This document shows, piece by piece, positions 28,919 through 63,038 of a stretch of 64,000 nucleotides of DNA. The first letter of the stretch is position 1. Every line of letters begins with the position of its first letter. The stretch is from Plumapathes pennacea (Eukaryota; Cnidaria; Anthozoa; Antipatharia; Myriopathidae), in assembly GCA_964036295.1 (NCBI GenBank), contig OZ038465.1, positions 10,694,167-10,758,166 of the forward strand. The letters run 5' to 3'. Made by a program: the position numbers and the translations under genes. The notes beneath the pieces were generated by a model. That model was not told where the DNA came from. It saw only the letters and a list, made by a program, of their open reading frames with translations, and searched no databases.

Positions 28919-31900
28919 ATGAAATGCGCTTGGTTGTTGCTTGTGTCTGTCTATTGTTTCACGTGGAGGATCAGTCTTGCCCTTGCCAGCCACAAACCAC
29001 AGCAGGCCCGCAAATCCAACAGAGGTATGCGTAAAGCAGTCAAAAGAGTTGTCCGCTCAAGAAATCGTTCATTTCATTTATGTTGAGTGTAGACAGTGCA
29101 GTGTTTCCCGGTAGATAATCGGCCAAATACGGCTTCCACACAAAGACCGGAAAATTTGGCGGACTCAGTTTCATTGCATGATCATTAGAACAGTCTAGCA
29201 TAACACTTGCGAAACGTCTCGCCGGTTTTATCAGTTTCGCAGAGTTTTCAGGTCGCCGTAGAATTTATTTTCAGATCGATGTCTTCAGTTCACATCATTA
29301 GATTTACCGGCAGAGCTTTGGTATGTCATATGCCGATAAATAAAGCGTGCCAGTGTTAGGCTCTAAGACATGTAAGAGCGTACAGGTACATCACGGCACG
29401 TCGTCCGCGACTCCTCCTTTAACCTGTTACTTCCCTTGTACGCATATTTCACTGATTTACCCAACCCATCCATACCCTCCACAACCACCCCCTGACCACA
29501 CAAATAACCTACTCACAGAACTGACGTGGGAGTATACTGTTAGTATAGTAGTAGTAGTAGCAGTAGTGACAGTAGTCGTAGCTGTAGGGTAGTCCGAGTA
29601 GACTAGTAGTGGTATTTAGTAGTAGTGGTGGTGTTTCTTCTTTTGGCTTACGTGTTTCTTCACAGATGACGCCTCAACACAGCATCACGATTCACAAATG
29701 GAAAGATTGCAGAAATTGTCCCAAGAACTGAATGAAAATTTTTTCCGACTTTCGATGCCTGAAAAGCATAACGCAGGTCAGAAAATGCCTTCAGTTGCTT
29801 TTCTCTCCCTAATTGTAACCTCATGCAACTCACCACTAAGGCTTGCCTCACCTCAACCACCTTTAAAAAAAGATAATGACTGTTTCTCTTTGATTTTAAA
29901 CTCTGTCCCAGGGTTGCCTCCCAAGTTGGATATCGTTTTTGCTCTGGATGCGTCCCAGGACTCCACGGTCGAAGGCTTTGAATTTCAAAAACAACTGGTG
30001 GAAAAACTTGTTGACGGCTTCAGTGTGTCTCTGAGTAGCACTCGAGTGGCTGTGGTCTCTTGCTCTTTGAATTATAACCATTTAAACTTTGACTTTAAAG
30101 CGTTTACTAACAAGAAATGCCTCTACGAAGCTCTACCAGTGCTCAGGTATAGTAGATAACTAATTGAATCTCGCGTAATAAGCTTTAGAAGCCGGGTGGA
30201 CTGTTAGTCCGAGGACTAAAAGTTACTTTGCCATGAAAATTCATTATAAAGTTTGAAGAAAATGGGACAAGAATGGTCCGTTTCTTACTGTTCCTTTCTA
30301 CAACATGGTCCTGGTCCTGGACACATTTGTCCAATCTAAAGCCATGTCAAGATGACTCTAAAGATTTTGAATTATTGTACATGTACGAGTTTTATCTGCA
30401 ATCAAAACAACTCTTAATTTGCACTATAGTCTACTATGCAGGTCTGTGATTGACAGTAATTTTGGTTTCACTTTCTTTTATCGTGCCCGTAATGTCTTTG
30501 TACAGGAATCCGCATGGATCACGCGCAATGGGACAATGCCTTCAGATAATTAACTGGAGAGTGCTGAAGACCCCACTGGGCATGCGTAAAGACTCCAAGA
30601 AAGTCGTATTTGTAATTACCACTGGAAAGACCCGGGTCTCAATTAATGCACGTATACCAACAAGAAAACTCAAGCGAAAGGGCGTGGAAATATTCGGACT
30701 TGGGATTGGACCGCGCGAGTGTGATTTCAACCAATTAAGGAACGTCGTCAGCTTTCCCGCCAAAACGCACATGTTTCGGTTGAAGAGATTAAATGATACA
30801 AGCGCCCTGTGTAAACTGCTCTCAGGGAAAGGTGTGTTTCTTCTAACAAATATTGATGTCTTTGGCTTTGTTAAGCCGTCTGTTTGCTGTCCTGGGCACA
30901 TAATTGAAGTCGCATCCAATCAACACTCACTTAAATAACTGCTCGCGAATGTAATGCATATAGCTTTCGTATCATGAGCCCTAAATATTTTATAAGCGTT
31001 CCAGTCGAAGTGGAGCAAGTGTTCGATACGTCAGCTTATACAGCGTTATGCTTGTGGCCACATTAACTGTAGGTTGGTAAATTATACATTTTCTCTATAC
31101 CGTCGCAAACCATCACTAGTTCTCACTAGCATTCCATAATTACTTATTTCTATATAGTCATTGCATTGTTACCTAAAAAAGAACAAAAGTTTAACATTTC
31201 AGTTAGCAACTGTGACTACTTATACCTTATCAATCCACAGGAACTTATTCATCTCTTTGCTATGGTGACAAAATTCACTACGATGAATGTGGTCGGAGAT
31301 GTGTGTGCGTCAAATCGGCTTTGCGCCAGTGTTCACGAGTGCGAAAAGACTTCCAGTCTATGGGCAAGGAAGAAAGACGCCGCTTTATTCGAGTTTTCAA
31401 AAAGGCTGCGACAACGAACCCATACAGGAGAAGGTTTGAAAAGCTTGCGGCTGTTTATACATTCAATTTTAAACGTGGTATTCATGACCGTAAGTTCTTT
31501 TTGCCTTGGCACCGGGCATACCTCCTAAAACTTGAAAACCTACTGAGCCAAATAGACTGTCGCGTCACAGTGCCTTACTGGGATTGGACACGAACATCCG
31601 GGAACCCCTGGAAGACAGGGATGTCCTCTGACCTCTGGAGCAGTGCAGCCTGTGGGCTCGGAGGAAATGGAACTGGAAAGGATCACTGCGTCAGAACCGG
31701 GCCCTTTAAAAATTGGAAAATACCTATTAAACATGGGCACAAGAAAACATGCTTGAGAAGAAGATTCCATGGTGAACTTCCAAACGAAGCAGCGGCATTG
31801 TTTGCTTTAGGCACGCCGCAGTCAAAGTTCTCAGATTTTGAATTGATTCTTCGCGTCTTTTTCTTTGACTCAGTTGCTTGTCATGTCGGTGGTGATATGT

Positions 31901-32184
31901 GCTCTGAAACCGCCGCATACACTCCAGAGTTTGCTCTATTTGCAAGCTTTGTTGATAAACTTTGGGCTGAGTGGCAAAACAAGAGTGAATATCACCGTGA
32001 TGTAGGCTTTCCGCACGTCTATTTGCCTCTGCCCGGGTTCAAAGACTACACTGGTGAAGTTCAGAGACTGGACCGGCAGCCTGGGTGTGTCAGAGTTCTG
32101 TACCAGGATCCATCTTTACGGGGAGAAGCGCGGACGGAAATCAATCGGCTGCTCAAAGGTATCAAATGGAACGTTTCTGTTTAA
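28919..32184 (+). CDS. Secreted vWA-tyrosinase fusion, predicted pseudoenzyme
   Basis: Five exons, 28919-29024, 29666-29776, 29912-30146, 30506-30831 and 31241-32184, give 573 aa. Order: signal peptide (MKCAWLLLVSVYCFTW); short charged helix; vWA domain about 74-260 (LDIVFALDASQD ... KKVVFVITTGKT ... GVEIFGLGIG); Cys motif ECGRRCVC; tyrosinase domain about 290-573. The tyrosinase fold is clear (FLPWHRAYLLKLE, VPYWDWT, EFALFASFVDKLWAEW). CuA keeps H341 and H350, but Tyr332 occupies the first His position. All CuB ligands are replaced (Phe468, Ala472, Phe493/Ala494), judged against the adjacent tyrosinase. The vWA metal site is also altered (DASQD, and TTG where TDG is usual). Copper catalysis is therefore not expected; a structural, binding or regulatory role in the extracellular matrix is inferred. 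AATAAA follows 40 bases after the stop. The vWA-tyrosinase pairing is not one I know. Confidence 0.9.
29531..29632. repeat. GTA microsatellite
   Basis: Degenerate tagtagtag run just before exon 2 of the vWA-tyrosinase gene. Confidence 0.8.
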
Positions 32185-32202
32185 TTTAACATAAAATCCC
32201 CC

Positions 32203-32229
32203 TCCCCCCCCCCCCCCCCCCCGAATAAA
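32203..32229 (+). terminator. C-tract and polyadenylation signal
   Basis: A run of about 20 C is followed by AATAAA at 32224-32229, 40 bases after the vWA-tyrosinase stop codon. The hexamer is the obvious polyadenylation signal; the C-run is simple sequence. Confidence 0.5.
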
Positions 32230-33606
32230 AAGTAGGTAGGTACACACAAAGACAAACTAAGACAAACAAACACCAAAACATAAAACAAACCGACATAAAC
32301 AAACACGGATAAATAATACAAACAACACTGATAAAACACAAGCAAAACAAACGCAAATACAGACACAACTACAGGCATAGGCACAGACACAAACAAAGAA
32401 CTCTGCGCAGCAAACATATGGACCGCTATTGGAATGCACTCATTTGGAGCTCTCAAGTTCAAATCAGTTTAGTAGGTTTAGTAATATTTCTTATTTGAGT
32501 TCAACTCACTCTGGGGGAGAAAAATGAATATACCTGTTACTTCTCAGTGATTAAAATAAGTTAAAACTAACGTTCACAAGAGAATTGTTTACTGAGTAAG
32601 GAAAACCCGGCATCCATACTTCACTCTGATTAAACTAGCAATGGTAGCACGCATACAGTTTCTATTATACTATAGTACGGATATTTAGACAGTCGGAGTG
32701 TATAAATGTGAATTCGCCAAAATGTCTTGCGCTTATAAAACCCAACCAGCTTTAACTTCTTTGATTAATCTTGCTTGTTCGTTTTCTGATTTCACAGTGC
32801 TACAGAAGGCTTATTTGTTTTGGTATCACCGTAACCAATCCTTCTCAAAATACACGCAGCAAGCCATGAAGAAGTTCCATGTTAAAGAAGAAGAAATGCA
32901 ACGGGCGCGCGTTTTGGGAGCCTACCTCTGAAGGAGATGGACTTTGGGTCGGAAAACGATAGACATTGCTACCAACGTCCTCTGAAAGTCCTGGGACCTT
33001 TCCTCTGGAGTACCGCTGCACCTGTTTCTTTTTTAAACACGAAGACGCGCTATAAAAGGAGAGGTGCCTAAGGTTTCTCGCCTTCATTTGTCAATCAACC
33101 GCGAGTCGCGCTAAAATTAACTTCGTGTCGAACTCACGTGATCACTCAATCATGTGTCAGCCTCAGTGCGACGATACTCTGGAACGCTATATCTTTTCTG
33201 TTTTTCTGTCTTCTTTGACACTACGGAGAAAATACTCAAACAAGAACATTCAAACAAAGGACCGAAACTAGTTTTCATGTAAAGTAAGGTTTCGTATTGG
33301 GCCTTGTTTTGAAGCAGAAGCAACATGCATTTATTTATTGAAAAGTGCTCGGCACGCTCTGATAAGCACACAAAACCAACGCACATACGGTGACGATGAC
33401 TAATGGCCAAAGTAGCCCACGTGATCACCTTCCCTGAGTTATCTAAGATCAAATGAGATTCGAGTTTATAATATCTTATACGCCTAAAGGAGAAGTTTTG
33501 TACCTAAGACCTTTTCAAAGACTTCTTACGTTTAGAAATGCAGATTACCAATTGTGGAAGAATGTTTTCTAGTTTGATAAATAGAAGTGCATACGATAAT
33601 TTTAGA
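32230..33606. other. Spacer between convergent tyrosinase genes
   Basis: No exon recognised. An aaacaaacacaaac-type low-complexity block lies at 32240-32400. TTTATT at 33331-33336 would be an AATAAA signal for the minus-strand tyrosinase. Confidence 0.4.
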
Positions 33607-36600
33607 TTAAAATTTGGTTGCGTTAATACTGTGGAACGGCACAGATACCATTGGCCTCTTCTTGTGTCTCGCCTGCCATCTTTCCCACATGGAATTACTC
33701 TTCTTTTGTACCATTCGTCTGCGCCTGCCAGATCGGCGGAGAGAGCTTAGCGGGAATCCCAAGGCTCTATCCCTTCTATTCATGCCTCGTTCAGTGGTCA
33801 ATGGTCGCGAGGGCTGAAGCTCTCGGAGCAATCTCTGGGCACGGTCTCTTTCCCTTCGCCCAATCCCGAGCCGCCGCAGCTGCCGTCGGCTGGCCGGTGT
33901 AAAGGAATGCCGAGGGAGTCTCCTCATTTGACGCACGCTCATCTGATCCAAACGATCGACAACGCGCCCGTATTCAGGATGCCGTGGATCGTTGTACAGA
34001 ACGCACTGGGCTGGCCGGCCTCTTCGTATCATGTAGGTGTTGTCCAAAAAGTTACGTGACTGATAGCGCGTCGAGATGAGTCGTCGGTTATTCCTGTTGA
34101 AATACGCGTTCATGTAACCATCACCAAGTTCCTGCCAGTTTGCCCAGAGTTTGTCCACAAAACAGTGATGCAAGAAGAACTCTGGAGCTTCGGCGGAGTT
34201 TAGGTTACACATGGTACCTCCCACGTTGCAGTGAAAACCATCATGGAGGTCTGCCCGTAGTTCCAGTTCGAAGCGATTAAATTGCCGCACTCGATTGCGC
34301 AGAAGTCGCTGGACTGCTATAATATCTGGAGGCCTCCCTAAAATACCACACGTGGAGTTAAGGATATTTAATCAACTTTGCGTCTTAGTTTCAGCCTTTT
34401 TATTATTTTGTATTATGTATTATTTTTATGGTCGGCAAATGGCAAGGCTAGATATAACTCGTGTTATGAACATATACCAAGAAATGAAGGCAACGTTTGT
34501 CTGATCAGTTTTTTGTATAAGTTTTTAGTAGTCAAATTTCGTACTGAACCTTGTGGCTTGCGTCGCCGTCAAACGAAACCACGTTTTCAATCGTGGAGCA
34601 GCAGAAAACAATCTCTTGCCAGCTGCACTGCTTGCTGAATAATTAGCAAGTCCAAGAAGCTTTTAGATTGATTTTGAACTATGAAAACATCATCAAAATA
34701 TCGTATTATCAAGAATTCGGAAATTTCCAGTTGAGCATTTTACGCTCCTTGACGTCAATATCACCATTGTAATTTACGATCTGAGGAAAGTGCAACTTTG
34801 TCGAATAGTCTTGGCAGTTTAGGGCCTTTACTCATTTTGTCGAAATTAATCTATCAGCGACACCTTTTTAAAACTAAGATAAGCTTGACGCCGATTCCGT
34901 AGATGCCAGCCACGCCATCAAGACGGAAGCAAGGCCATGTGAAGTTTAACGAAAATAAGGATCTACATTTGAGTCTAACGCCTTCAAACAGCACTTTTTT
35001 TGCCGATAAATACTTATGAGTTCCCATCAGGGATTGATTGACTTATCTCAGTTCCAACTCTTCGCCACAAATACGTAGCACAGTAAATAGAACAAAGTGG
35101 CAAAAATTTAACAAACCAAGTATCAATTGAAATCCCACAAGAAAAAAGTATCATACGCCCGTACTGATCCTCTCACGCGTGGTAAAACTTCAGTGAAAAA
35201 ATTGAAACAATTCTAGACTTACCGTTAAAACGTCTGGTTATACAGCGTCGATTGGCCGATCGGGTCATCCGCCACCTTCCTCTGGCGAATTCTCCGGTCC
35301 TAACACAGCCTCCTCTCCCATCCCCTCCCAAACCGCGAGGGCTTGGCGACCAGATGCTCTCGTTCAACCCGTTTGGCCGGCCCCTCCAGAAACTACCTGT
35401 TTCCCAAGGACGGCCCGAGAACAGCGACCAATCATGATAAGGCAAGGTAACCCTACAGTCGATTTCCTGCAACAGATCTTCAAACTCCAACATGTAATAT
35501 CTGTGCCAGGGTAGAAACTGTGCGCGCTGGTGAATTCCCGACATGAATAGTCTACTATGTTTAGAGACGATGCGATCGTACTTCCGTCTGTAGCGTCGGT
35601 CCACTCTCGCCCTTTTAATCGTGCTTATGTACCGCGCTCGCTCCTGTCCAGTCATGGATGTGAAGTCATTTCGAACCCTACAGCAGTCAACAGGTCTGCC
35701 GTTCTCGCAGAAACACGCCCGCCCGCATCGGTCGGTGACCTCCTGTCCTTCATTGTTCGAATTACACTGGGAAAGAACTCCTGCAGCAATAGACAGATAG
35801 AGGGTACATAAGTGTTAGGTCCGTTTCAAACGTCGCGCTACTGCCGTGCCGAACTCAATGCTTAACAGGGTTCACACAGAAAATAGGGAACCAAATTTCA
35901 TGATTATTGATGAATTAAATATATTTTGTGACCCAATGAAACTCTGGGCTGATTGTCCGGACCTTTCGGCTGAGGATTTGATGCCCGAGACAAGGGAGTC
36001 CAAACTTCCTTTTCCATGAAATTGCAATAATGTGAGCGGAAAACTCCAAATTCCACGACTTTTTCAGGCCTTGAAAGCAATTTTAAAACTCCACGCCCGT
36101 GTGAAGGCTGCTCATAGACGCTATTTTATAGCAAAAGCTGAGGGGAAGACGAGAGCCACGTGTAACTATTATAGCCAATCTCCGTGACCATCTGACGAAT
36201 CTGTCAAAATATATTTCTGGATTTGCTGAGGGCGAACCACACCACGTGGTAATAGTCCAAAATTGGGCGGCATTTAATGGAATGTTGAACTAGCTCATAA
36301 ATAGATTTTCAAAGGTCCACTGTGGATAAGAGACAGCCGGTAATAATGAATATAGGATTTCTTAGTCTACCCCCTTGTTAATAGTAATAAACGTTCATCG
36401 GCCGTGTGGTCACTCTATTTTTCAGTCAGCGGTCATTGCACACAAATATGAAATCAAGTGCAGATGCTGTAGTTCAATTTAATGAACCTTGTAAAACTTA
36501 GTAGTTCTTTCTTACAAAAGGTTGGAAATCTATGCTCACATGTAATGCTTCTTTTACCATTTATCGAAACGTATTCGTTGCCCCCGCAGCTTTCTAGCTG

Positions 36601-41868: not shown

Positions 41869-44800
41869 CTGCTCCATCAGAATAGTGTACCACAGAACCC
41901 TTTGCGAACAGTATTCGTTTTAGTTATTCGGAAATTTCTTCATGATCTAAGCGCACATATTATAACCCTGATATCTGTAGCTATTACTCCTCATCCCCTT
42001 GAGAAGCTGGTCTGTTCACATTACCACCAGCAGTTTGATATGATCATATAAAGATCGCATCTTCCTGTACAAGATTTTTCATCCGACGTGATCAAAGTCA
42101 CGAAAGAAAGGGAACATATGGGGGGTACACCCCTTCTGCCCCCATATCCTAGATGGAGACAAGGGATAGTAATCTAAAGAGAGAACGTTCTGCATTACAT
42201 GACACTAACCTTGTTACTAACGCATCTTGTCTCTTCTTAGACACGTATAACCCCTGCGAACTCTCCAACCACACGTGTCCCCAGAACAAAATCTGTGTCG
42301 GCAACTTTGCCTGCATCTGCGCCAACGGGAGCTACGGAGACAATTGTGAAATACGTAAGCAACTAGTTCATTTTATCTAGCATCCGAATAACCTTTTAAA
42401 GTAAGAAGACTAAGAAGTATGGTAGCCCACAAGTGCAAAACAAAATACTTTCTTTCAAAACAAAATACTTTATTCTAAAACAAACTACGGCTTTATTCTA
42501 AACAATTTACTCTTTTCTAGAACAAAATACTTTTTTCTAAAACAATTTACTTTTTACGCAAAACAAAACTTTCTTTTGTGCGAGGTCCCGGATGTGAACG
42601 GGAGAGCCTTCCCACGTGGATGGCCGGGTACAAGCTACACAATGGCCAACATGGCGTACTGTTGCTCTTGTGGCACGAAATACGAAGTAGGAAAAGGCAA
42701 GATTTTGCTCCGGTTGTGGTGAGCTAGAATCTGAAAGCACAAGTACGACAACAAATCACGGAGAAAAGCCTGCCAAGACACCCACACTGTCCTTCCAGGC
42801 ATTCAAATCTCGCAAAGAAGCTGCGTGCGCGACTCACTTTCGCCCTCCGAAGAAAGCAAAGCAGCTTCACTAAAATGGCGACCGTGTGCCTTTCGTTTGA
42901 TCAATGCCTTTTTAAGGATTTTTGCATATGTACTGGTCACCCTAACCGACAAGGGTAGAGTTTTGCCCCATTGCTTCTTCAGGGATGCTCCTCAGGAAGA
43001 AATTGTATCACTCCGATCTGAATGGTCACTTCTTTCTCGATCCGCTTTGCTTTCTTCGGAGGGCGAAAGTGAGTCGCGCGCGCAGCTTCTTTGCGAGATT
43101 TGAATGCCTGGAAGGACAGTGTGGGTGTCTTGGCAGGCTTATCTCCGTGATTTGTTGTCGTACTTGTGCTTGGGCTTTCAAATTCATGCTCATTACCACA
43201 ACCGAATAAAGTATTTTGTTCTAGAAAGAGTAAATTGTTTTAGAATAAAGTATTTTGTTTTAGAAGAAAGTATTTTGTTTTGAAAGAAAGTAATTTGTTT
43301 TGAAAGAAAGTAATTTGTTTTGAAAGAAAGTAATTTGTTTTGAAAGAAAGTATTTTGTTTTGCACTTGTGGGCCACCGTCAAGAGTCCTGGTGTCTGATT
43401 TCATAATCTTGAGTACGAGTACAGACATACATCGGACTTATTATAATTCATACAATTTCCGAGCCAAAAATACTAGGGGATGCTTAAAATAGCGTTAAAA
43501 AAATATTGGGAAAATGTGAAAAAATATAACCCAGAGTCTGGAATCCAGAAAATCTTAAGGGTTGGATGCCAGAATCCAGAGACTCTTTCTTGAGGGATTC
43601 TCTTCAATGTGACGATCGAAATTTTTCTTGGCCAGTTGTATAAAGCACAATAGATACATGCTTATCAATGTGGATTGCTTAGCTTTCAGGCCATGTGTAG
43701 TTAGCATGTACTTTAACTTAATCTTCGCAGCAGTAACTATTCTTTCATCTTTAAAGTGAGCACATTTCTTGTATTGGCGTCGCTGAGACCGTGAGTGGTT
43801 CATAACCCAGCATCGGCAGCTGCGAGATTATTTTTCGTTCATGTCTTTGTTGCAGCATGCAGCGTAACCAGATATGACTTGGCATTTGTCACGGCGGGCA
43901 GTCCTTCATTCTTCGAACATTCAAATTACAGGGGAATACGCGAGGTCATGCAAACACTCGTCAAATCACTAACCGTCGGAGTGAAGGACGTTCATATTGG
44001 TTTAGTGACGAATCGTGGCCGTTTAGGGTTTCCTTTTGAACACGATAAAAACTTAATTAGCACGCTAATTAATAACAACACATATCTTGACGGGTGGACC
44101 ATTTACACTGGCAGAGCTCTGAACAAGACAAGAACAGATTTGTTTCGCAGCTCTCGCATAGGAGTGCCTCGCGTGATACTTGTTCTCGCCGATAAAACAT
44201 CGGAGGACGATGTGAGTCTGCCTTCTAAATTATTGCGAGAGAATGGTACACTTATCCACGCTCTTGGGATTGGCTATTGTTACAGTCTGCTGGAGATGAA
44301 GACAATGGCGAGTGATCCTGATTCGGACCACGTGGTCGTTGTGACGTCACAGCTGCTGTCCTCTGTTATCACCAAACTCCACAAGAATTTATGCAATGGT
44401 ATAGAGAAACGATACACTAAAGGAACTTCAGTGTACTTTTAAGTGATTCCATCCACACCGTAACCTTGACAAATGTTCATACCTTACAGCACCGTATCAT
44501 GATACACTACACCAAGCATTATTATCAAAACCACGTCATGCCTCACCCTAGGCTATCATTTACCATACCTTGCTATACTCTGCTATATCATGTCACACAC
44601 AACACTAACATCTTACTACACTTTACATGAGAATGTCGCAGCGTACCTTGCCAAATAATGATTTCTACTAAACCCTACCATATCATAGTGCTATAACATG
44701 CCCATAAAACCATACCAAAGTATAACTATTTAGCACAGTTAATTATCCAGCATCATACCAACAACACCGTCCCACCGTAATACACCATAGCACATCACAC

Positions 44801-45563: not shown

Positions 45564-45758
45564 GTAAGCAGGACATTGAAAAATGGGTGGCGCGTTACAT
45601 CACCCAGACAGTATATAACCTCCTATAAAGCTATATTAGATTTTCCATCGTTCTACTCCCAATAGTGATGAACTTTAAAATGCCTTTCCGTCCTGCCCAA
45701 CAAAACGCATGCTGACACAATGTCCAGAACAACCAAAAAAAAAAAAGGGGGAACCGGC

Positions 45759-46034
45759 TGTTGCTCTGATATTCAGAGCAGGTAAAATTGGTGTTCTGAT
45801 ATTTAGAGCAGTCAAGTTTGGTGTTCTGATATTCAGAGCAGATGAAATGAGTGTTCTGATACTAAAGCAGTCAAGTCTGATGTTCTGATATTCAGAGCAG
45901 ATAAAATGTCAGTGTTCTGATACCTAAAGCAGTCAAGTCTGGTATTCTGATATTCAGAACAGATATGATGGGTGTTTTGGTATTTAGAGCAGTCAAGTCT
46001 GGTGTTCTGATATTCAGAGCAGGTGAAATGAGTG
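45759..46034. repeat. Minisatellite, ~22/44-bp unit
   Basis: About eleven copies of ggtgttctgatattcagagc alternate with agtcaagt- and aaaatg-type spacers. One more unit lies at about 46762, beyond the neighbouring transposon, so that element probably inserted at or near the array. Confidence 0.85.
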
Positions 46035-49282: not shown

Positions 49283-50175
49283 ATGGAACCCTACGAAAAC
49301 TCTACACACTTGCCTCACAAAGACGAAGATCAAGACTCCAGTCATGGCGTCTTTTGGTGGGAAGTTTATATCTTTCTCGTAATGATTGTCCGCACGGTGA
49401 CAGTAAACGCTTTCGTCATTTTCCTTATAATACACAAGAAAGTACTAAAAACGGCCACTAACTTGATTCTGGCGAGTCTGGCGTTGTCTGATATTGATGT
49501 GTAGTGGCCACGCTAGACTGGGATGGCACATGTACCGCCTTTGCGATTTTCGTCAAATTCATCTCTTTCACATCGGTAGCGCACATCCTTTTGCTCACAG
49601 GTGATCGGTATATCTATAAAATGTTTGCGCTTCGTTGCGAAGATCTCGTTCATCGTGGACGAGCTTGGAAGGTTTTGCTGATCACTTGGATGATGACTAC
49701 GTTATCGGGCACCGTTCCATTGATCTGGCTGGTAGGTGACGAATACGACGATTCTCAAGAAGAGCAGTATTACCAAGAAGACCAGAAAGAGAAGATTTAT
49801 CACGTCTTCTCGTTTGCGTTCTTCTTTTGTCTCCTCTTCGTGGTCATCACTTTCATGGATGTCCATATGATGTGCATCGTACATCGACAGACTAAACTCA
49901 TTTATCAACGCAATCTGCCAAGCCAACTGCGCAAGCAAAGTGCACATCAACTGATCGGGAGGAAGAGAAAAGCGGTGCTCACTTGCATTATCATACTGAT
50001 CGTATATGTTGTCTGTTGGCTGCCATATTTCGTGCTTGCTCTCATGAAGCAACCTATTAATTTGGCCATTTGGCTGCAGTGGCTCATCTACCATGTAAGA
50101 TTTCTATCGTCTGCTTGTAATCCGTGGTTGTACACGCTGAGGAAGTATGATTTGAAACGGGCTACCGTCTGCTAG
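49283..50175 (+). pseudogene. Rhodopsin-class GPCR pseudogene
   Basis: The first of two tandem copies. It starts MEPYENSTHLPHKDEDQDSS, matching the intact copy, but after LASLALSD a deletion of about 30 bp removes most of helix 2, shifts the frame and meets a stop at 49502. The rest reads on in another frame (TGDRYIYKMF, CWLPYFVLALMK, NPWLYTLRKYDL) and ends early, at a TAG where the intact gene has TGG, so the cytoplasmic tail is lost. From about 49675 to 50150 it is almost identical to the intact copy, while the 5' third is clearly diverged. Confidence 0.85.
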
Positions 50176-50675
50176 CTTAGAGAAAGTCTTCCCGAAGTGT
50201 CTGTCCAATTTGCCTTTAGCAGTGACGGGATTATGATGGGCTTGTTCCGCGGAACATCGCTCGGAAACAAACGTTTTCCAAGTTAAAATATATAACCAAA
50301 ATACACCTTACGGTTACTGCTTCACAGTTTTAATGCACGAACAAATAGATGAACCAACACGAGAAAAAAACATAGGAAAAAAGAAAATATCATAACTATC
50401 ATTTTCAGCCGAAACGCGCTTCAAATGGCGCCGACTTTTGTGCGGTCACAAAATTTGACAGAAGAAATAAAGAGAAGACAAGTGTAGGGTGATCACGATA
50501 AGCCAGCGCACTAACGCCGTGTGCGGACGTTATTACGAGCTTTTCTGGTAACAGAAACAGAGAAACCAGCCAATCAGTAGACGATTGTGGTAATATCTAA
50601 GAGTGTACACAGAAAATAACATACTTAATCTCTGCAGCTGCCGACAATTTACAAAGCAAAGTTCACTCGCAAAGG

Positions 50676-51722
50676 ATGGAACCCCACGCTAATTCTACTC
50701 ACTTGCCTCCCAAAAATGAAGATCAAGATGCCAGTCTTGGTGTCGTTTGGTGGGAAGTCTGTATATTCCTCGTAATAATTGTTCCCACAGTGACAGTTAA
50801 TGCTTTTGTCATATTCCTCATAATGCGCAAGAAAGTACTAAAAACGGCCACTAACTTGATTCTGGCGAGTCTGGCGTTGTCTGACTTTCTCATGGGCGCC
50901 ATCGGTATTCCATTGATACTGGTGTGCAGTGCTGACGAACAAGACGGCATATGCACCGCCTCTGCAATTTTCGTCAAATTAATCTCTTTCACGACGGTAG
51001 CGCACATCCTTTTGCTCACAGGTGATCGTTATATGTACATCATGTTTACGCTTCGCTATGAAGATCTCATTCAACGTGGACGAGCTCGGAAGGTTTTGGT
51101 GATCACTTGGATGATGACTACGTTATCGGGCACCGTTCCATTGATCTGGCTGGTAGGTGACGAATACGACGATTCTCAAGAAGAGCAGTATTACCAAGAA
51201 GACCAGAAAGAGAAGATTTATCACGTCTTCTCGTTTGCGTTCTTCTTTTGTCTCCTCTTCGTGGTCATCACTTTCATGGATGTCCACATGATGTGCATCG
51301 TACATCGACAGACTAAACTCATTTATCAACGCAATCTGCCAAGCCAACTGCGCAAGCAAAGCGCACATCAACTGATCGGGAGGAAGAGAAAAGCGGTGCT
51401 CACTTGCATTATCATACTGATCGTATATGTTGTCTGTTGGCTGCCATATTTCGTGCTTGCTCTCATGAAGCAGCCTATCAATTTGGCCATTTGGCTGCAG
51501 TGGCTCATCTACCATGTAAGATTTCTATCGTCTGCTTGTAATCCGTGGTTGTACACGCTGAGGAAGTATGATCTGAAACGGGCAGCCGTCTACTGGCTCA
51601 GACAGATTTTCCCCTGTCTCCCGCTGAAGCGTCGAAAAGAAAACACATCGATAGCACTCATGACGACTGGAACCGAGGAGAGATTGAACAAAACGCAAGG
51701 GCTCGATGATCATGAAGTGTAA
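50676..51722 (+). CDS. Rhodopsin-class GPCR, orphan, intron-less
   Basis: 348 aa in one exon with seven hydrophobic segments. Class A marks: LALSD in helix 2 (D70), GDRY after helix 3 (116-119), CWLPY in helix 6 (254-258) and NPWLY in helix 7 (289-293). A short N-terminus with an NST sequon precedes helix 1; an acidic second outer loop (GDEYDDSQEEQYYQEDQ) and a 50-residue tail are notable. The Met at 50676 (MEPHANSTHL) is the first in frame and aligns with the duplicate. Ligand unknown; cnidarian genomes hold many such intron-less receptors. It is about 500 bases downstream of its pseudogene copy. Confidence 0.9.
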   Translation: MEPHANSTHLPPKNEDQDASLGVVWWEVCIFLVIIVPTVTVNAFVIFLIMRKKVLKTATNLILASLALSDFLMGAIGIPLILVCSADEQDGICTASAIFVKLISFTTVAHILLLTGDRYMYIMFTLRYEDLIQRGRARKVLVITWMMTTLSGTVPLIWLVGDEYDDSQEEQYYQEDQKEKIYHVFSFAFFFCLLFVVITFMDVHMMCIVHRQTKLIYQRNLPSQLRKQSAHQLIGRKRKAVLTCIIILIVYVVCWLPYFVLALMKQPINLAIWLQWLIYHVRFLSSACNPWLYTLRKYDLKRAAVYWLRQIFPCLPLKRRKENTSIALMTTGTEERLNKTQGLDDHEV

Positions 51723-60148: not shown

Positions 60149-62018
60149 CTAAGACAAGAAATACAGAGAAGATACTGAGACAGAGCACAATTGATAACAC
60201 GAGAGAGTTATAGACAGAGGGAGGCACCAGACTGCAAATATTCCCTGGTCGTATTGTGGGAGTCCAGAAGAGTATTACGCGCGGAAAATGAGGCACTGCG
60301 CGCAGTATACGACCGTCCGACCGCACTGTACTCAACAAAAGGGTTTGGATTTTTGTTCACCTGTCGAAGATTATATATTTAGCGTGCAACAAAAGCCGGG
60401 TCCGCTAAAATATTTCTTTAACAGGAACCACAGTGGAGTCCCAATAATTCAAACTATCAATAACTCAAACCACAAGTCGTTTCCCTCTATTTTGCTGACA
60501 CTGTAATTTTATTCCCGATATCTCGTTTCCTTTGGATTCAACTCTAGTTTATTCAATTATTCTTAGCATGGAGGGAAACTTTTAGAAGCTTTTTTGATAA
60601 CGTTCAGCTTTGTTTTCGCGCCGGTGATTGTTCTTTACGCCAATATATACATCAAACGGCATCATCACATTAACGGCTGCTTTCCTTAAGAAAGAACATT
60701 TCTTCAAAATTCTATCGACACCCTGGTTTACGTAATACTTTCAAAAAGGAAACATAATAGATTTGTGACTAGTCTTGCAAATAAATCATCTTATTTATAC
60801 CACACTTGAAACTACCAGTTTTCAATTATCACATTTTTAAAGCTTTAAAAAAGGCTTTACGTGCAAGCTTTCTCGCTTGTTATCATAAAAAGCTTTTAAT
60901 CCAATCACAAGGTAAATGTTTAAACGCCATTAAACCGACGCACTTGCAGATAAGAACTTTTAGAAAGCTGATACGGTCATAAATTACCCAAATATAATGT
61001 AGTAAATACGTACATTTATCTGTGTTCAATAAGTAGTTGCCAATCGTAACCAACAGTATTTTATTACAGGTATAAAAATCATCCGCTAATATAACAATAC
61101 TTGAATAACATAATCGCTTGACAGTCATTTTAATCTGCGCCCATGATTCCTAGAGCAGATTTTTTTTGAAGAAAAAAGGCGGTACAGCAAAATCTTTCAC
61201 CTGTGAGTAACCAACAACGACTCAGGCATGACAAGTTCCTTTTACTTCCACAAATATAACTCCAAAGACGGATATAAGTAACTCTTAAAAGGTTCGCTCG
61301 GGTTCCAAGCTGATGAAGTGCAATATGCACTTTTTTAATCAGATGCTTCATCAAGACCTAGCGTTGCTTAGCTGCACCAACGCGGAGTTTTAAGTAGCCC
61401 CCAAAATAGAAATAAAAAAATACTAAGACCCCTCCATCAATTTGACAGCCGTCACAAAGTAGCTCTGTTCGGCCATTTGGGTTGAAATGAAAGCAAATCC
61501 ACTCTCTGAAATGGTCACATGCAGGCTTTTCGTCTTTTCATCTAATCTTTTTGCGGTACAAATTGACAGGTTGTGACGTTAGCAAGCGCTGCGGCGCCGC
61601 TGTTACCGGACAGGTGTACCTAACCATACATCAACAAAGTGTCCATCAAATTCATAGAAGCTATTATGCTATCAACAACATGCAGGAACAAAAACCTTTG
61701 ACGTGTCCTGTCAGAAACATACGCGAGATAAGAGCGAGCAAAAGCAACAGAAGTCCAGTTCAATTCAGGAGATCACAGCGTTCAAGTGTACACACGGCAG
61801 GCACATTTACTCAGCTAGCAAACCTAAACACCTAGCAAGCTACGAGGCAGCTCTTCACACAGGACGATAATACTGATTAGCACCCCAATCCAGCCCGGCT
61901 GGCTGAAAATTTAAAGTGATTATACTTTTCAAGTTATACACTTTCCGGAGCAAGGCGCGCTGGCAATTTAAGTTGGGGCACAGCGCCGTTAGAAAGTAGT
62001 AAGAAGACCAAAAGCGCT
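60149..62018. other. Upstream of the GPCR; no exon recognised
   Basis: Searched on both strands for the missing GALT/HIT-like N-terminal exons and for GPCR leader exons; none could be supported. It is either an intron of the minus-strand gene or intergenic. Confidence 0.35.
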
Positions 62019-63038
62019 ATGGGAGATCCAAACAGCAGCTTTCTCAACGCCACACTAAACCCTACGGCCGCAAAGAACGACGAAAGCCAAGCCCTTCCTT
62101 TCGACATCGGCTCTGCAAGCCTCGCCTCGGGAATCGTGCTGGCGGTTCTTTCGCCCATTACGGTCATCGCGAACGGGCTGTTACTGTTTGCAATCTATAG
62201 AGATCCATTCAGGACATTTCGAAGTGCGACGGCGTGTTTTCTGATCGGCTTAGCCGTCACAGACCTCGTTACTGGTCTGGTTCCCGAGCCTATGGTGGCG
62301 GTCTGCTATTTTCTGATCTACCTAGAGCATCCTGCGTCTGCTCATTGCCCCAAGGTGTTTCCCATCGCCGGCATCACAGCTTCGATTACAACCAACTCGA
62401 CTTTCCTCTTAGTGCTAGCCTTCACCGTTGCGCAGTACGTGGCCGTTTCTTGTCCGATCAACTACAAGCGCTTCATCAGCACGAAGCGTACAGTGATCTG
62501 CGTTCTGCTCATTTGGGCGTACACGACGTTCTTCGAGTTGCTTGGCGAGATCGGCGTCTCGCAAGAAATCGTCGAGAAAATCGATCTGCACCTTCACTCG
62601 ACACTGACAATCCTATTGAGTGTGTTCATGTACGCCTTGCTGCACCAAACTTTCAGCCGGCAAATGCGTCTTCACTCGCCCTCTAACAGCTGCACCATAA
62701 CAACGACAACGTCAACAGCAGCGACAGCAGCAGCAACAGCACTAAGGAACCAAGCTAGCGCTTCCAGAAGAACAAGACGAAACATTGTGGAACGCAAGTT
62801 TGTTAAAATTAATCTTCTTTTAATTTCAATCTTCATTTTTTGCTCTCTCCCGAGTGCCATAACGTGGTATTTCTACTTTTACTGGCCAGAAATGCGAAAT
62901 AGTCGCGCATTCTTCATTACTCGGGTTATCGTGGACAACACGTTATATCTTAAGTTTGTTTTAGATCCATTTGTTTATGCATGGCGATTGCCAAGGTATC
63001 GTCAAGCGTTGGTGAAAGCGATAATGTGCGAAGGTTAA
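62019..63038 (+). CDS. Rhodopsin-class GPCR with AQY in place of DRY
   Basis: 339 aa in one exon, seven hydrophobic segments. N-terminal sequons NSS and NAT; helix 1 carries ANG (51-53), helix 2 LAVTD (D82). The usual DRY at the inner end of helix 3 is AQY (138-140), and NPxxY in helix 7 is DPFVY (316-320). The third inner loop is Thr/Ala-rich (TITTTTSTAATAAATAL) then basic (RRTRRN). Start is the first in-frame Met. The loss of the DRY acid and arginine suggests altered G-protein coupling or basal activity. Ligand unknown. AATAAA occurs in an AAT run about 70 bases after the stop. Confidence 0.88.
   Translation: MGDPNSSFLNATLNPTAAKNDESQALPFDIGSASLASGIVLAVLSPITVIANGLLLFAIYRDPFRTFRSATACFLIGLAVTDLVTGLVPEPMVAVCYFLIYLEHPASAHCPKVFPIAGITASITTNSTFLLVLAFTVAQYVAVSCPINYKRFISTKRTVICVLLIWAYTTFFELLGEIGVSQEIVEKIDLHLHSTLTILLSVFMYALLHQTFSRQMRLHSPSNSCTITTTTSTAATAAATALRNQASASRRTRRNIVERKFVKINLLLISIFIFCSLPSAITWYFYFYWPEMRNSRAFFITRVIVDNTLYLKFVLDPFVYAWRLPRYRQALVKAIMCEG

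Follow-up and report, generated by a model that had tools for sequence, protein, structure and literature searches.

Background

Type-3 copper proteins carry three conserved His per copper, as set out in a survey of the class (PMC3658974) whose available text contains neither 'vWA' nor 'von Willebrand'. Among the arthropod hemocyanins, the accessible sections of one study describe a copy in the millipede Cleidogona with three of the six His replaced, and place the storage proteins hexamerins and cryptocyanins as copper-free relatives (PMC6034248). In corals, tyrosinases are studied as enzymes of melanin and immunity; the parts of the relevant papers at hand report tyrosinase in an immune cell type of stony corals (PMC8162421), its correlation with melanin (PMC11579526) and, in the red coral skeleton proteome, a tyrosinase listed alongside separate vWA proteins (PMC7853314). 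In literature largely confined to papers open without subscription and available in part (including PMC12549020), neither a vWA-tyrosinase fusion nor a ligand-less cnidarian tyrosinase was found. Here we describe a gene in a 64,000-nucleotide stretch of the anthozoan Plumapathes pennacea (the window; C4:10694167-10758166, in a 290-Mb genome of 24 contigs), which encodes a vWA domain followed by a tyrosinase domain without four of its six copper ligands. The spliced gene model has six exons on the forward strand (28919-32932 of the window) and a product of 609 residues.

Loss of the copper ligands

A whole-genome Pfam search gave at least 29 tyrosinase matches, read as at least 24 genes: five of another type on contig C12, which were left out of the counts, and 19 of the type of the focal gene, which were aligned and which include the focal gene and its convergent neighbour. 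His is present at all six ligand columns in each of the 18 other genes, whereas the focal gene has it at two, having lost one of three ligands at the first copper site (CuA) and all three at the second (CuB), so that the full set of six His, three per copper, of a functional type-3 copper protein is no longer there. Tyr332 (TAT, 31456-31458) stands at the first CuA position, while His341 (31483-31485) and His350 (31510-31512) are retained at the second and third; Phe468 (TTT, 31864-31866) and Ala472 (GCT, 31876-31878) occupy the first two CuB positions, and Phe493-Ala494 (31939-31944) replace an HH pair. The third CuB ligand is the second His of this pair (Ala494), because the first is Ile in the paralogue C4_571 and Leu in a bacterial relative (L024).

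The original prediction, made from the letters of this stretch, had named these same residues, and the GT-AG spliced model matches its numbering exactly; its claim that most ligands are lost is borne out for four of the six but does not extend to His341 and His350. It had also allowed that another alignment might supply His at the ligand positions. As H-x3-H occurs nowhere in the focal protein, no alternative alignment restores CuB, and the sole H-x8-H is the pair 341/350. With four ligands lost, the protein is therefore not expected to assemble a binuclear type-3 copper centre or, as far as known chemistry goes, to oxidise phenols. It takes at least seven nucleotide substitutions across four codons to account for the loss (nine across five codons when Phe493 is counted), and the frame is otherwise intact; an artefact of sequencing or assembly at these codons, for which nothing was found in favour, is hardly credible.

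When the best 80 of at least 547 confirmed tyrosinase stretches in prokaryotic genome contigs were examined with a motif script, 79 had the six ligand motifs and the remaining one (L046), with an FHH outside the script pattern, was intact on reading. No orthologue of the focal gene came from viral contigs, where 10 stretches matched a pattern and none was confirmed, or from the phage collection.

The retained residues raise the question of a repurposed metal site, in which a mononuclear 2-His-1-Tyr centre, made up of Tyr332, His341 and His350, would bind Cu, Zn or Fe and carry out a new activity. Both leftover CuA His are at the family spacing, and the third CuA ligand is replaced by Tyr, a possible metal ligand. 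However, His350 lies within a PWHR motif and both His are perhaps structural, while Phe and Ala occupy the CuB positions, and we hold such a site to be unlikely.

Constraint on the remainder of the tyrosinase domain

Outside the ligands the picture is reversed. The other 18 genes share 50 invariant columns, made up of the six ligands and 44 others, and the focal gene keeps 43 of these 44 as against two of the six ligands (Fisher p 3.1e-4), the pattern of a pseudoenzyme that has lost its catalytic residues and kept those of its fold. When each of the 18 other members was left out in turn, 17 lost between 0 and 2 non-ligand columns and the convergent neighbour lost 3. All nine Cys columns (Cys in at least 8 of the 19 genes) are retained. 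Of the 75 non-ligand columns that are near-invariant (the same residue in 16 or more of the 18 genes), 64 are kept and 11 are changed; four of the changed columns (352, 478, 487 and 493) lie one to seven residues from a ligand and may reflect remodelling of the pocket. The fold markers pointed out earlier (LPWHRAY, YWDW and FVDKLW) are all found, and exon 5 (31241-32158), which encodes the domain, matches Pfam Tyrosinase at 5e-26, its 92.8 bits being far above the curated cut-off of 22.6 for PF00264. Up to E 0.1, PF00264 was the sole family reported for the exon, with hemocyanin-type Pfam domains absent.

Since the paralogues are old and their synonymous sites saturated, selection was assessed as the longest possible neutral tail at the end of the focal branch, using a codon model over 266 codon columns, which include neither the ligand codons nor the leading residue of the HH pair. 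The best neutral tail is 0, and twice the log-likelihood difference (2dlnL) reaches 3.8 at about 0.035 substitutions/site, the same on three tree placements. Tails above about 0.035 are thus rejected and selection has, in this one genome, not relaxed to neutrality, as is expected of a pseudoenzyme. With a tail of 0.035, seven or more changes among the 12 first and second ligand-codon positions have a probability of 3.7e-8, and a tail of about 0.41 substitutions/site is needed for seven such changes to reach a probability of 0.05. If the whole focal branch is set neutral and the other parameters are left fixed, the cost in 2dlnL is 126.

Nine neutral tails were simulated, at 0.05, 0.1 and 0.2; the best grid point fell on the true value or next to it each time, and the tails of 0.1 and 0.2 were recovered in all six cases. 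Across six genes the best tail was 0 in the focal gene, C6_5468, C9_1105 and C9_848, 0.02 in the convergent neighbour and 0.05 in C4_571; as the last two show, the estimator does not always return 0. As a separate observation, C4_571 (C4:571597-572142, locus L018), in which Ile replaces the leading residue of the HH pair, rejects a tail of zero at 2dlnL 10.9, and this copy is possibly under relaxed constraint.

The neutral-tail bound is relied upon because the branch ratio of nonsynonymous to synonymous substitution rates (omega) is weak as such: in a first model it is 0.10, with 2dlnL of only 3.6 at 0.3 and 7.2 at 0.5, and in a second model the focal branch length reached its bound. The view in the original prediction of a pseudoenzyme under constraint, as opposed to a dying gene, had been argued from the open frame; in this genome it now has behind it the 43 conserved columns, their contrast with the ligands and the bound on the tail.

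Free decay of the focal gene is rejected. A recent decay, in which function was lost and the gene drifts with stops not yet accumulated, would sit well with the longest branch in the family and with the 11 altered near-invariant columns, but it has to be squared with a best tail of 0, with intact frame, splice sites and invariant columns, and with ligand-codon changes that call for a neutral tail of about 0.41 substitutions/site, and we regard it as very improbable. Constraint may have persisted while the ligands changed slowly, or the changes may have been rapid and adaptive.

We accordingly favour a pseudoenzyme for binding or scaffolding whose fold is kept under selection, at a probability of roughly 0.7. 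Several points weigh against it. The evidence is the sequence of a single genome. Simulated tails of 0.05 were estimated at 0.02, 0.02 and 0.05, with zero not excluded (2dlnL 1.2 to 3.3). The focal branch is saturated at synonymous sites, so that omega averages over a long branch and takes in time from before the loss; had the ligand changes been rapid and adaptive, the loss itself could be recent. The focal branch is also the longest in the tree, and partial relaxation is compatible with the data. Finally, the structure model, in which the focal domain has the tyrosinase fold of the PF00264 family, draws on an alignment of mostly intact bacterial tyrosinases, which biases it towards that fold.

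Gene model and the vWA fusion

All five introns of the focal gene are GT-AG. Exon 1 (28919-29024) provides the start codon and a hydrophobic N-terminus that by eye resembles a signal peptide, which suggests that the protein is secreted. Exon 2 (29666-29776) encodes a short, probably helical linker, and a segment resembling it by eye precedes the vWA domain in the paralogue C9_1109 (C9:1109k). The vWA domain is divided between exon 3 (29912-30146; Pfam VWA 3.8e-10) and exon 4 (30506-30831; 1.6e-10), each scoring above the cut-off of 23.8 bits for PF00092, with a phase-2 intron before exon 4. The donor at 32158|GT, which ends exon 5, splices to exon 6 (32798-32932), consisting of a C-terminal tail and the stop and similar to the tail of the neighbouring tyrosinase gene. 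The gene end proposed earlier (TAA, 32182-32184) falls within this last intron, the sixth exon having been overlooked. The convergent neighbour (33610-35814, reverse strand), seen as open-frame parts at 35814-35223 and 34337-33610, has its six His intact.

The fusion itself is not the unusual part of this gene, as three other vWA-tyrosinase fusions in the genome (C9:841k, C9:848k and C9:1109k) all keep six His. All three have a phase-2 intron that interrupts the vWA domain where the focal gene has its own, and in C9:841k and C9:848k, the two that were read across the junction with the tyrosinase domain, that junction is in phase 1, which matches the focal gene. Many further vWA matches in the genome span the intron point in one open frame. 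The intact ligands and common phase-2 intron of the C9 fusions suggest that there was probably one fusion event, earlier than the ligand loss, which the tree alone neither shows nor rejects. A first tree search placed the focal gene between the pair formed by the neighbour and the C6 gene and the remaining genes, and a C20 search grouped it with four C9 genes (support 71/58); approximately unbiased tests rejected neither a clade with the three C9 fusions (p 0.42) nor one with the neighbour and the C6 gene (p 0.39). The focal gene is a divergent member of the alpha-type tyrosinase family.

Two further observations concern tyrosinases elsewhere in the genome. One of the five genes clustered on C12 (L005, C12:2812247-2812930) has an in-frame TAG inside the match, and a cluster of seven ligand-intact genes with short branches in about 64 kb of C7 (C7:13609975-13674016) suggests a recent local expansion.

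The MIDAS motif for metal-dependent adhesion is DxSxS. The corresponding stretch of exon 3 in the focal gene, DASQD, is degenerate by eye, and the C9 genes have AVVSSSL or LVLTSFT there, without the first Asp; adhesion without MIDAS by the focal vWA domain is possible.

A proposed route to the present gene

Taken together, the tyrosinase fold is most likely a non-catalytic module that the vWA domain would display extracellularly. A gene with the vWA-tyrosinase architecture has been stripped of its CuB site entirely and of one CuA ligand, and neutral evolution is rejected for the remainder of the tyrosinase domain. The vWA domain may anchor the protein, presumably secreted, to the matrix or to other proteins, and the tyrosinase fold, its ligand positions filled by Phe, Ala and Tyr, could have a role in binding or scaffolding, for instance by retaining tyrosyl or phenolic ligands or by associating with active tyrosinases in a non-catalytic capacity. 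A bolder version, rather unlikely in our estimate, would make this anthozoan matrix pseudo-tyrosinase a decoy or regulator of ligand-intact tyrosinases, or its CuA half a mononuclear 2-His-1-Tyr site with new chemistry.

Alternatively, the protein might be a storage or bulk structural one, as has been proposed for the copper-free hexamerins and cryptocyanins of arthropods, where, in the accessible text, a type-3 copper protein has lost ligands in the same way (PMC6034248). The calculated isoelectric point of the focal protein is 9.8. Among its counts of K+R, D+E, Cys and His only the basic excess stands out, and it is common to several paralogues. No second close copy was found in searches of the genome, and the vWA domain points to adhesion and not to storage, which leaves this role quite improbable.

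Other features of the window

A single-exon vWA open frame (43795-44442) has no attached tyrosinase domain that could be seen. Two tandem open frames for class-A G-protein-coupled receptors (49498-50175 and 50601-51722) share 93% identity across 218 residues, the 5' part being absent from the open frame of the first, and a further class-A receptor frame lies at 61920-63038 (7tm_1, 8e-13). A tandem array with a 60-base unit is present in 4.6 copies at 45758-46034.

Comparison with known systems

A domain search alone (Pfam 5e-26) would count the focal gene as an enzyme despite the lost ligands of its copper pair. It is a clean case of an active site dismantled with the rest of the fold under selection, and the three ligand-intact sister fusions together with 15 other ligand-intact paralogues offer controls within the same genome for separating binding from catalysis. 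Human TYRP1 keeps six His and binds zinc, whereas the focal protein has two. Compared with the alpha-subclass tyrosinases of cnidarians, molluscs and the bacteria Streptomyces and Bacillus, the focal protein is without four of six copper ligands and has a vWA domain in front. It shares with C9:841k, C9:848k and C9:1109k the order of vWA then tyrosinase and the phase-2 vWA intron, but the C9 genes keep all six His. Its likeness to HcBI2 of Cleidogona is that of a type-3 copper protein with His replaced; in the sections available, HcBI2 is described with three of six replaced, one of them by Tyr, and as lying on a faster branch (PMC6034248). HcBI2, the hexamerins and the cryptocyanins belong to the arthropod hemocyanin superfamily with a storage role proposed, whereas the focal protein has lost CuB wholly and carries a vWA domain. 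Type-3 copper proteins with missing ligands are thus already known, and the focal gene adds a cnidarian, vWA-fused case to them.
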